Source of the DNA: Planctomycetia bacterium
Lineage (GTDB): Bacteria; Planctomycetota; UBA11346
Assembly (NCBI GenBank): GCA_005801395.1
Contig: SYDV01000018.1
Coordinates: 1-7,025, forward strand
Direction: 5' to 3'
Length of the DNA stretch: 7,025 nt
Shown here: positions 4,879 to 7,025 of the stretch, one piece after another
Layout: each line of letters opens with the position of its first letter
How positions within the stretch are numbered: the stretch's first letter is position 1
Program-made: the position numbers and the translations under genes
Notes under the pieces: model-generated
What the model was told of the DNA's origin: nothing
Database searches by the model: none
The model's input: the letters and a program-made list of their open reading frames with translations, nothing else

Positions 4879-6060
4879 ATGAGCACTTCTCCTTCAAAAA
4901 TTCTTCGCATCGGTGTTGTTGGCATTGGCAACATGGGCTCGAGTCACGTGACGACCATCAATGACGGCAAAGTAAAACGCTGCCAGGTGACGGCGGTTGC
5001 TGACGGCGATGCCGAGCGCACTGGCCGTTTCCCGAAAGCGAAAGCATTTAAAACGGGTAAAGAATTAGTGGAGTCGGGTGAAGTCGATGCCGTGATCATC
5101 GCGACCCCACATTTCGATCACACGACGTTAGGGACAGCCGCTTTAGCCGCTGGTCTGCACGTGTTAGTCGAAAAACCATTGTCTGTTCATAAAGCTGACT
5201 GTGAGCGATTGATTGCTGCCTATCATGCGCGTCCTAAGAAAGAGCAAATTTTTGGCGCTATGTTTAATCAGCGTACTGACCCACATTATGCTAAAGTGCG
5301 TGAGTTAATTGTGAGTGGTGAATTAGGCGAAGTTCGTCGAATTAATTGGATCGTAACCGATTGGTTCCGTACGGAAGCTTATTATGGCAGCAGCGGTTGG
5401 CGCGCGACCTGGAAGGGTGAAGGCGGTGGGGTATTGGTTAATCAATGTCCCCATAATTTAGATTTAATTCAATGGATGTTTGGGATGCCGACTTCGGTGC
5501 GTGCATTTTGTGAATTTGGAAAATGGCATGATATTGAGACGGAAGATGCGGTGACTGCGTACTTGGAATTTCCTAATGGCGCGACCGGTGTCTTTATAAC
5601 CTCGACGGGTGAAACTCCTGGTACCAATCGTTTAGAAATTGCTGCCGAACGTGGTCGTATTGTTATTGAAAATGGTAAGGTTCAGTGGACGCGTAATACC
5701 GTTGCGATGACTGAATTTAGCAAGACCACGGATTCAAGTTTTGGTCGCCCTGACGTGTGGAACATTGATATTCCCATCGACGGTAGTGGTGGTCAGCACA
5801 TCGCCATTTTACAAAACTTTGTCGACGCTGTTCTGGATGGTGTGCCGTTGATCGCACCTGCTGTCGAATGCATGAATTCGGTAGAAATCGCTAACGCGTG
5901 CATCTATTCGAGCCTCACGAATGCCACCGTGCAATTCCCGCTGGATGGCGCGAAGTATGAGCAAGCCCTGCAAAAGCTCATTACCGAATCTAAGTTCGTG
6001 AAAAAAGTGGTCAAACGTACCGCGAGTGCGGATGATTTTGCGAAGTCGCATCAGAAGTGA
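4879..6060 (+). CDS. Gfo/Idh/MocA-family NAD(P)-dependent oxidoreductase
   Basis: This 393-residue cytoplasmic dehydrogenase or oxidoreductase acts on a sugar, inositol or related polyol. The N-terminal Rossmann fold has GVVGIGNMGSSH (Gly15, Gly17, Gly20) and an ADGDAERT stretch after beta-2. The family signature EKP is at 98-100, with Lys99 the likely catalytic or substrate-contacting residue. The C-terminal domain carries GGGVLVNQCPHNLDLIQWMFG (182-202), which includes the conserved His192 and Asp195. In this stretch Asn188 stands where many family members have Asp, a variant I associate with the GGGxLxNQxxHxLDL clade. Length is normal and the protein looks intact. No twin-arginine or other export signal is visible, unlike many relatives in PVC bacteria. 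It is followed on the same strand by an isomerase-like gene, a pairing common in sugar and inositol catabolism. The exact substrate is unknown. Confidence 0.93.
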   Translation: MSTSPSKILRIGVVGIGNMGSSHVTTINDGKVKRCQVTAVADGDAERTGRFPKAKAFKTGKELVESGEVDAVIIATPHFDHTTLGTAALAAGLHVLVEKPLSVHKADCERLIAAYHARPKKEQIFGAMFNQRTDPHYAKVRELIVSGELGEVRRINWIVTDWFRTEAYYGSSGWRATWKGEGGGVLVNQCPHNLDLIQWMFGMPTSVRAFCEFGKWHDIETEDAVTAYLEFPNGATGVFITSTGETPGTNRLEIAAERGRIVIENGKVQWTRNTVAMTEFSKTTDSSFGRPDVWNIDIPIDGSGGQHIAILQNFVDAVLDGVPLIAPAVECMNSVEIANACIYSSLTNATVQFPLDGAKYEQALQKLITESKFVKKVVKRTASADDFAKSHQK

Positions 6061-6071
6061 AATCCTTAGGA

Positions 6072-6322
6072 GTGTCAGGAAGTCCTTTGGAGGGTCCGGA
6101 AGTCCGGAAGTCCTGGGTCTTCGGGCATTTTTCTCCGTTGGGCGTTCTTTTTTGCGACGGCTATAAGGACTTAACGTCTAATTCAATTTCAATGGCCCCA
6201 GCCTTTCTGTAGTCGCAATTGTGACGCCCGCCGTTTCATGCAGTATGTCTCACGCCAGGCTTCCGGACTTTCGGACTTCCGGACTTCCGGACCCTCCAAA
6301 GGACTTCCGGACTTCCGGACAC
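6072..6322. repeat. Long imperfect palindrome of tandem GGAAGTCC/GGACTTCC units (MITE- or REP-like element)
   Basis: Bases 6078-6113 are perfectly complementary to 6273-6308: 36 bp with no mismatch, separated by 159 bases. The left arm reads GGAAGTCC, then TTTGGAGGGTCC, then GGAAGTCC twice. The right arm is its reverse complement, plus one extra outer GGACTTCC (6309-6316) and imperfect inner units at 6261-6272. If that extra unit is skipped, the ends also match, with GTGTC (6072-6076) opposite GACAC (6318-6322). Within the loop, GGGCGT (6140-6145) pairs with ACGCCC (6224-6229), TGCGAC (6153-6158) with GTCGCA (6212-6217), and GGCT (6159-6162) with AGCC (6200-6203). The whole element is therefore an imperfect palindrome. 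I see no clear target-site duplication and no reading frame in it. It fills almost all of the gap between the oxidoreductase and the isomerase. Confidence 0.85.
6212..6225. repeat. Short imperfect palindrome inside the element loop
   Basis: GTCGCAATTGTGAC is a 14-bp near-palindrome centred on CAATTG, with one mismatched pair. It lies inside the larger element. It could form its own small hairpin or compete with the long-range GTCGCA/TGCGAC pairing. Confidence 0.45.
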
Positions 6323-6342
6323 AATTAAGTCCGGATTCTCCC

Positions 6343-6350
6343 AAAGAGGA
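6343..6350 (+). promoter_or_regulatory. Ribosome binding site of the isomerase-like gene
   Basis: AAAGAGGA ends five bases before the ATG at 6356. It is a good Shine-Dalgarno at normal spacing, just outside the palindromic element. Confidence 0.8.
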
Positions 6351-6355
6351 CCATT

Positions 6356-7025
6356 ATGCGTTTGAATCAAGTCGCGCTTCAGCTCTACACGTTACGTGAT
6401 TACACTAAGACCGCATCAGATTTGGCTGTTACGGTGCGTAAGGCACGGGCCATCGGTTATGAATCCGTGCAAATTAGTGGTGTGGGACCGATTCCAGATG
6501 TGGAATTAGCAGCAATTTGTCGTGGCGAAGGTGTGCGTATTTGTGCCACCCATGAAAGCGGTAAAGTTATTGTTGAAGAACCACAGAAGGTCATTGATCG
6601 TCTGGGTTGTTTAGGTGCGACGTATACGGCTTATCCGCATCCACACGTGTCGCTGACCACAGTTGAAGAAGTTCTCGCCTTGGCGAGTGCGCTCGACAAA
6701 GCTGGAAAAATCTTGCGTAAAGCAGGGATCGTACTGACTTACCATAATCATGCTTTAGAATTGCGTAAATTTGATCGCACCACCATGTTGGATTTATTTT
6801 TCGATAATACCAATAAACAAAATGGGCAGGCCAGCATTGATACATATTGGATTCAGGCCGGCGGCGGTGATCCAGTGGAGTGGTGCCGCAAATTGAAACG
6901 TCGTTTACCCATGATTCATATGAAGGACTTCGGTGTGAGTCGCGATAATCGAACCGCGACGATGATGGAAATTGGCAATGGTAACCTGAATTGGCCAGCG
7001 ATCATTCAAGCAGCAGAGAAAAGCG
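6356..7025 (+). CDS. Sugar phosphate isomerase/epimerase-like TIM-barrel protein (3' end beyond window)
   Basis: The frame starts at ATG 6356 and is open to the window edge, giving 223 residues without a stop. It matches the xylose-isomerase-like AP_endonuc_2 barrel family (IolE/IolH-type isomerases, epimerases and dehydratases). Seen motifs are VALQLYTLRD at the N-terminus (strand 1), TYHNHALEL (128-136), IDTYWIQAGGGDPVEW (161-176), MIHMKDFG (186-193) and EIGNGNLNW (205-213). In this family the metal and substrate ligands sit in these strands; here the candidates are His130/His132, Asp162, His188 and Glu205. About 30-60 residues are probably missing. With the oxidoreductase it forms a likely two-step oxidise/isomerise pair on the same strand. 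The 295-bp gap filled by a palindrome raises the question of whether they are still co-transcribed. The substrate is unknown. Confidence 0.9.
   Translation, partial: MRLNQVALQLYTLRDYTKTASDLAVTVRKARAIGYESVQISGVGPIPDVELAAICRGEGVRICATHESGKVIVEEPQKVIDRLGCLGATYTAYPHPHVSLTTVEEVLALASALDKAGKILRKAGIVLTYHNHALELRKFDRTTMLDLFFDNTNKQNGQASIDTYWIQAGGGDPVEWCRKLKRRLPMIHMKDFGVSRDNRTATMMEIGNGNLNWPAIIQAAEKS

Follow-up and report, generated by a model that had tools for sequence, protein, structure and literature searches.

Long terminal inverted repeats of short tandem repeats, enclosing variable loops, characterize the foldback (FB) elements of eukaryotes, and tandem heptamers are found in cyanobacteria as STRR. 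The intervening sequence (IVS) in the 23S rRNA of Coxiella has a 28-bp terminal stem with two to three tandem heptamers before the S23p gene, and its excision from RNA by RNase III is reported in the available part of the source (PMC4990558), which gives no known function for the 23S-intervening-sequence protein family. According to the accessible portion of PMC10053308, PF05635, a four-helix bundle, resembles Avd. In two Xanthomonas species, heptamer arrays form closely spaced inverted pairs (70 and 75); the available sections of PMC4692102 treat these repeats as quadruplex-forming and make no mention of four-helix proteins. REP sequences are defined, in the part of PMC3733652 at hand, as 20-40-bp palindromes with a GTAG or CGTC tag and form dispersed paired palindromes.

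The locus described here is an intergenic repeat tract of about 240 bases (positions ∼6074-6320) between two sugar-metabolism genes, in a stretch of 7,025 nucleotides that was analyzed as a whole and is called the window. Like the 23S IVS with its S23p/IVP gene, the element has terminal inverted repeats that form a long stem, and its coding relatives carry the same protein family; it differs in that the window copy lies between protein genes and not within 23S rRNA, lacks a PF05635 (IVP) gene, and has tandem arrays as arms. The inverted arrays of Xanthomonas and STRR are likewise intergenic but consist of tandem 7-mers, whereas the unit here is an octamer; heptamer arms do occur on the same core in the sister genome. 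It shares with FB elements terminal inverted repeats built from a variable number of short tandem units, and differs from them in being far shorter and bacterial, with no transposase known for it. Dispersed intergenic palindromes paired in opposite orientation are also typical of REP/BIME sequences and their RAYTs, from which the element is set apart by the missing tag motif, the tandem-unit arms, and the lack of a linked RAYT. As with a MITE, there are many dispersed copies, counted in relatives and not in the host, and the search for a cognate transposase, which covered the Y1 family, found none linked to the same ends. The likeness to diversity-generating retroelements lies in Avd, which PF05635 resembles.

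Results

Structure of the Element and Its Setting

The locus closest to the window is L001 (MAG CH-Jul18-104), with 98% amino-acid identity in the oxidoreductase, followed by L002 with 85%; the genome of L001, sister of the window, is called G001 and that of L002 G002. Judged by these closest loci, the window DNA is planctomycete. Pfam identifies the two neighbors of the element as an oxidoreductase and a TIM-barrel gene (Table 1), in keeping with the sugar-use gene pair that the original prediction had named as the setting.

The predicted perfect inverted repeat of 36 bp with a 159-bp spacer is real, and it can be widened to 6074-6113 / 6273-6312 (40 bp, 98%). Direct comparison of the arms confirmed that both consist of GGAAGTCC octamers and one 12-bp insert, complementary between the arms; on the left a single unit (6078-6085) precedes the insert and two (6098-6113) follow it. 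The right arm does carry extra units and is the longer of the two, with two degenerate units (6257-6272), two perfect ones, the complementary insert, and two more units. The insert itself was found nowhere else in the loci compared for loop similarity. No ORF of at least 60 amino acids overlaps the element, which had been described as having no reading frame.

Table 1. Positions of the element's parts and of the flanking genes in the window
Feature	Position	Strand	Composition or evidence
Left arm, 36 bp	6078..6113	+	GGAAGTCC, 12-bp insert, GGAAGTCC x2; perfect complement of 6273-6308
Left-arm 12-bp insert TTTGGAGGGTCC	6086..6097	+	Complement present in right arm; both without counterpart in L001
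Loop with degenerate nested palindrome	6114..6256	.	Alignable with 26 dispersed G001 cores and the L001 orthologue
Conserved core half TGGCCCCAGCCTTTCTGTAGTCGC	6193..6216	+	Match to pattern TGGCCCCAGCCTTTCTGCAGC in relatives
Right arm	6257..6320	-	Direct-repeat family D1; tandem-repeat row 6260-6320
Right-arm 12-bp insert, complement of the left one	6289..6300	-	Sequence comparison of arms; absence in L001
Upstream neighbor, Gfo/Idh/MocA oxidoreductase gene, outside the element	4879..6060	+	Pfam PF01408, PF22725, PF02894
Downstream neighbor, xylose-isomerase-like TIM-barrel gene, outside the element	6356..7024	+	Pfam PF01261; runs off the window

The Same Site in the Nearest Relatives

The window and L001 share ∼88% DNA identity over 4.5 kb, and L001 has an element at the same position, with perfect arms of 27 bp and with the 12-bp insert missing from both arms. 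The insert has thus apparently been gained or lost in both arms between the window and L001, which is most simply explained by arm-to-arm copying, and this comparison is the best evidence for such copying. The original prediction held that the arms must be kept identical by recent duplication or gene conversion and that the element looks as if it grows and shrinks by unit slippage; the concerted change of both arms and the variation in unit number are observed, and copying and slippage would be the processes behind them. In L002 the two genes stand in the same order with no such element between them.

The loop of L001 departs from that of the window at 12 of 144 aligned bases (8%), compared with 107 of 290 fourfold sites (37%; Fisher P 3e-11). 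Conservation is likewise seen in the AraC-oxidoreductase intergenic region (17 of 139 bases differ, 12%), so that part of the loop conservation may be general to non-coding DNA. Folding of 6061-6356 as RNA gave -146.5 kcal/mol against a shuffle mean of -91.3 (z -10.3), and none of 200 shuffles reached a value this low. A conserved cis-regulatory RNA or attenuator of the gene pair would account for the strong predicted fold and for the low divergence of the loop. We nevertheless consider it quite improbable, because the core recurs at many other places in G001, no such element lies between the same genes in L002, the nearby intergenic region is conserved as well, compensatory changes in the core are few, and Rfam gave no match up to E 1 in the window from 5900 to 6500.

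Elsewhere in the window, positions 100-125 and 2356-2381, 2.3 kb apart, form a 26-bp direct repeat (GGTTTTTTGTTTTTGGGCTCTGCCCC, 88% alike). A repeat at 2356-2580 (GGGGCTCTGCTCC plus a long tail), after a methyltransferase gene, is missing at that place in L001, which has copies similar to the GGGGCTCTGCTCC stretch after its isomerase gene (12171-12416); by this comparison, the stretch is another dispersed repeat with a filled/empty difference.

A Foldback Family Dispersed in Related Genomes

The search for other copies, which covered the genomes of relatives and not that of the host, found many, and all copy numbers below are to be read accordingly. The arm motif CCGGAAGTCCGGAAG has 113 matches in G001 and 60 in G002, with 0 for the reversed control. 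The 19-mer GTCCGGAAGTCCGGAAGTC matches 104 times in G001, 54 in G002, 265 in G004, 29 in G006, and 122 in G013, the five matching genomes among 40 relatives; in a sample of the phylum 6 of 392 genomes match, the sixth only once. The stretches read contain 94 distinct paired elements whose arms are built of octamers or GTCCGAT-type heptamers (window 1, G001 42, G002 20, G004 17, G013 12, G006 2), where pairing demanded equal arm types. The family is thus dispersed in the relatives, and each member has a loop flanked on either side by an array of 7-8-bp tandem units, the two arrays being inverted. The heptamer pattern GTCCGATGTCCGATGTCCGATG (at most one mismatch) has 57 matches in G001 and 181 in G002, with 0 and 27, respectively, for its reversed control; GTGCGAC, a third unit, is matched 23 times in G002 and 30 times in G013. 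A search of IMG/VR returned one related locus.

Many loops of G001 have a common core with a nested palindrome. The half-core pattern TGGCCCCAGCCTTTCTGCAGC (at most three mismatches) matches 47 times in G001, once in G002, and not at all in G004, G006, or G013, and 62% of 820 loop pairs in G001 lie above the 99th percentile of shuffles, compared with 7% of 91 in G002, 3% of 120 in G004, and 9% of 55 in G013. The loops of the latter three genomes are therefore mostly unrelated, and the copies there do not derive from one master sequence. When the arms in G001 were counted again by core sequence alone, with no demand for equal arm types, the 26 cores had octamers on both sides in 16 cases, heptamers on both sides in 8, and a single recognizable arm in 2. 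Each two-armed element has a single arm type, and since mixed cores number 0, both arms of an element seem to be swapped or rewritten together. Alignment A1 contains 28 of 32 loops (125-175 bp; L056:1521, L059:5287, L063, and L185 omitted, L050 reversed in direction); two of its 16 predicted pairs show double changes, both in the arms (octamer versus heptamer units), and in view of this weak covariation we make no claim of RNA structure for the core. Rfam gave no match at gathering scores for 14 related loci.

A local origin without mobility, in which short hairpins form at any position and template switching and slippage then extend them and make them perfect, with the similarity of units at many places due to sequence bias or to gene conversion between hairpins, would suit the concerted arm change between the window and L001, the unrelated loops just described, the many unpaired one-unit arrays in G002, and the many different units at IVP loci (see below). 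We judge this explanation rather unlikely, given that five genomes have 29-265 matches each to the octamer motif and a sixth of the 392 sampled has a single one (reversed control 0), that G001 loop pairs so often exceed the shuffles, and that 26 cores of G001 can be aligned with the loop of the window.

Gene context was assessed by crude ORF calling, which excluded 60 of the 94 elements as overlapping an ORF of at least 100 amino acids and 4 more with no neighbor on one side. The 30 placed elements, the window included, lie between tandem (21), convergent (3), or divergent (6) genes, compared with 190, 58, and 53 adjacent ORF pairs, respectively. That the element is a mere transcription terminator or mRNA-stabilizing hairpin, as a small terminator-like site at 6112-6125 might suggest, is exceedingly improbable, since elements are not enriched between convergent genes and the region has 2 terminator-like sites against a shuffle mean of 0.8.

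Some further arrangements were observed in the stretches read. At 3470-3760 of L059 (G001), the left part of one core element is followed directly by a whole second element, which may represent a tandem or nested insertion. At 3646-3913 of L070 (G002), the loop of an octamer foldback contains a second foldback of GAGAGCACA-type units. Extra GCCGAAC-array stretches in G002 (L269-L280) have the unit in one direction only in 11 of 12 cases, and GCCGAAC is also the unit of several IVP loci of G002; some of these arrays begin at or just past a stop codon, and in L269, L272, and L273 the contig end falls in the array.

PF05635 Genes in Foldbacks

An octamer foldback of G006 (L165, G006:C79) encloses a full ORF with a PF05635 match, and in G004 (L209, G004:C632) a PF05635 gene lies between GGAAGTCC arms; the arms of the window element are thus also found around an IVP gene. 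Both loci are at guaB-guaA and count as one independent case. The sole PDB relative of the L165 protein at E ≤0.001 is 2GSC, identified as Xcc0516 of Xanthomonas campestris in the available parts of PMC4990558 and PMC10053308. PF05635 matches number 9 in G002, 6 in G004, 3 in G006, and 8 in G013, and octamer arms are present at only 2 of these 26 IVP genes of arm-bearing genomes, both at guaB-guaA. Inspection of the flanks by eye revealed that nearly all 26 have short tandem arrays, of many different units, on one side or both. G001 (2.6 Mb) has no PF05635 match, which is weak evidence of absence as this genome also has no guaA match and looks incomplete. In the phylum sample, 77 of 149 genomes have PF05635, 72 of them over the family cut-off.

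For flank tests, 56 IVP loci (L189-L244) were assembled and 17 with incomplete flanks excluded, which left 39; the phylum-wide part (30 loci, 27 usable) was taken from among the best matches, one per genome, and is not a random draw. The 300 bp upstream were aligned to the reverse complement of the 300 bp downstream, with a threshold score of 16 and a period of 6-9 bp. Inverted flanks were found at 28 of the 39 IVP loci, 19 of which were periodic at 6-9 bp, and were missing at 11; the phylum-wide subset gave 22 of 27 inverted and 14 of 27 periodic. Only 4 of 3000 random positions reached the threshold. At Y1-transposase loci (15 with complete flanks from ten related genomes), flanks were inverted in 9 and periodic in none. 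With 600-bp flanks and a mismatched-pair threshold, 25 of 39 IVP loci scored as inverted and 10 as direct (direct score above inverted in L199, L212, L213, and L220), and 13 of 15 Y1 loci were also inverted, so that it is periodicity, and not inversion alone, that is specific to IVP genes. An earlier, looser array test (at most one mismatch) had detected inverted same-unit arrays at 6 of 14 IVP loci; none of the 15 Y1 loci had them, and of 2000 random positions 3 did. Because some array was present on a given side at roughly half of these random positions, the 300-bp flank alignment was used instead. These data suggest a general, though not strict, tendency of IVP genes to lie within foldbacks of this kind, the 11 loci lacking inverted flanks and those with a direct flank relation speaking against a strict rule.

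An expanded REP/BIME-type repeat was among the leading ideas of the original prediction, and its movement by a RAYT (Y1 transposase) would suit the presence of Y1 genes in all five arm-bearing genomes and the resemblance of oppositely oriented intergenic palindromes to BIMEs. This reading is highly improbable, however, as the flanks of Y1 genes are REP-like and never composed of periodic tandem units, the 20 Y1 loci scanned for a transposase gene with the same ends gave as their sole octamer-arm match one ∼1.3 kb from the gene, and the element, read directly, contains no GTAG/CGTC-tagged palindrome of 20-40 bp. The partner that does have the same arms is a PF05635 gene and not a transposase. 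A search for PF01797 in ten genomes yielded no RAYT with the same repeat, and REP/RAYT membership was rejected. The REP-like, non-periodic inverted flanks are those of L109, L111-L113, L117, L118, L121, L123, and L127.

Outside the phylum, tblastn with the L165 protein matched 28 plasmid records, mostly cyanobacterial. Six of 12 plasmid IVP genes examined score at least 16, 4 of them periodic (≥0.75); L263 scores 14 and L268 12, L264 and L267 show none, and L261 and L262 show, by eye, an array on the left with roughly one unit on the right. Random windows in these short loci reach 16 in 8% of cases, many of them overlapping the element, and the plasmid sample is therefore taken as no more than supportive. 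In two cyanobacterial plasmids (L257 and L263), the IVP genes lie in CRISPR-cas operons in the orientation of the operon, between cas6 and cas4 and between cas10 and cmr3; 18 genes of the PF05635 family in cas loci are noted in the accessible part of PMC3936711.

Seven IVP loci (L197, L199, L204, L207, L211, L212, and L214) have, by eye, a similar GC-rich leader that lies between the left array and the start codon (GTGCTCGC..CAAGG / CTGCGCGCG). The leader is a candidate structured RNA; Rfam gave no match for these loci (all but L214 searched).

Variation at guaB-guaA

The site of the octamer-armed IVP genes of G004 and G006 is occupied in G002 by a short gene-free foldback of GTCCGAT heptamers and in G013 by a gene-free foldback of GTGCGAC heptamers, and the arm units of both are also dispersed in the same genomes. 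Reading of the sequence showed no foldback at this site in G003, G005, G008, G009, or G010; the survey excludes G007, whose guaA is split over two contigs with the upstream side unread, and G001 with its lack of a guaA match. Gene-bearing and gene-free foldbacks with different units thus occur at one site, by replacement or repeated insertion.

The presence or absence of foldbacks therefore varies at two orthologous sites, the gene pair of the window and guaB-guaA; no insertion event was seen as such. The original prediction had suggested a non-autonomous mobile element, against which a lack of other copies and strict conservation between the two genes would have spoken. What was found, many dispersed copies in relatives and absence between the same genes in L002, favors dispersal in those relatives, and transposition would be the step that leads to it.

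Discussion

The tract at 6074-6320 is, in our view, probably a non-coding copy of a lineage-specific foldback family of Planctomycetota that is linked to IVP genes. Our confidence in this reading was lowered slightly by the location of both octamer-armed IVP genes at one site. Against it also weigh the missing PF05635 match in G001, the IVP loci whose flanks lack an inverted relation or show a direct one, the single-direction GCCGAAC arrays of G002, and the mostly unrelated loops of G002, G004, and G013. A non-autonomous element fits the pattern of copies, and we infer transposition from it; that IVP genes drive the mobility is possible, and we put it forward tentatively.

Template switching and slippage are known for quasi-palindromes and tandem repeats. 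By such processes, arm identity in the foldback family might be maintained through template switching in the foldback, and unit number altered by slippage during replication. The element would spread as DNA, with help in trans from IVP or from a partner bound to it, perhaps of the kind that Avd has in diversity-generating retroelements, and IVP or its partner would recognize the hairpin and not a fixed sequence. In the transcript, the arms could form a long duplex that RNase III might cut, as in 23S IVS elements; for the window element, such excision is suggested by the predicted stem. Cutting of this kind would let insertion between co-transcribed genes be tolerated.

A broader proposal, which we regard as doubtful at present but worth stating, is that IVP genes define a widespread class of minimal mobile elements, with ends determined by structure and not by sequence, namely by inverted arrays of any short tandem unit. 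An Avd-like protein would act on the hairpin, as DNA or RNA, and spread coding and non-coding copies, and the short tandem repeats dispersed between bacterial genes (in Planctomycetota, cyanobacteria, and xanthomonads) would, together with the 23S rRNA IVS, all stem from one system. Xanthomonas was already known for inverted pairs of heptamer arrays, and the Coxiella IVS for tandem heptamers before its gene. No earlier mention of a link between IVP genes, inverted tandem arrays, and numerous non-coding foldbacks turned up in the open-licence literature searched; among the matches listed there, a collection that leaves subscription papers and most preprints outside, no report connects IVP genes with inverted short tandem arrays.

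The association brings an orphan protein together with intergenic repeats that were themselves an orphan class; the two become one testable system, and the foldback family supplies natural examples of concerted evolution of arms. If the broader proposal is true, the 23S IVS and the dispersed intergenic tandem repeats of bacteria would be the products of one system.
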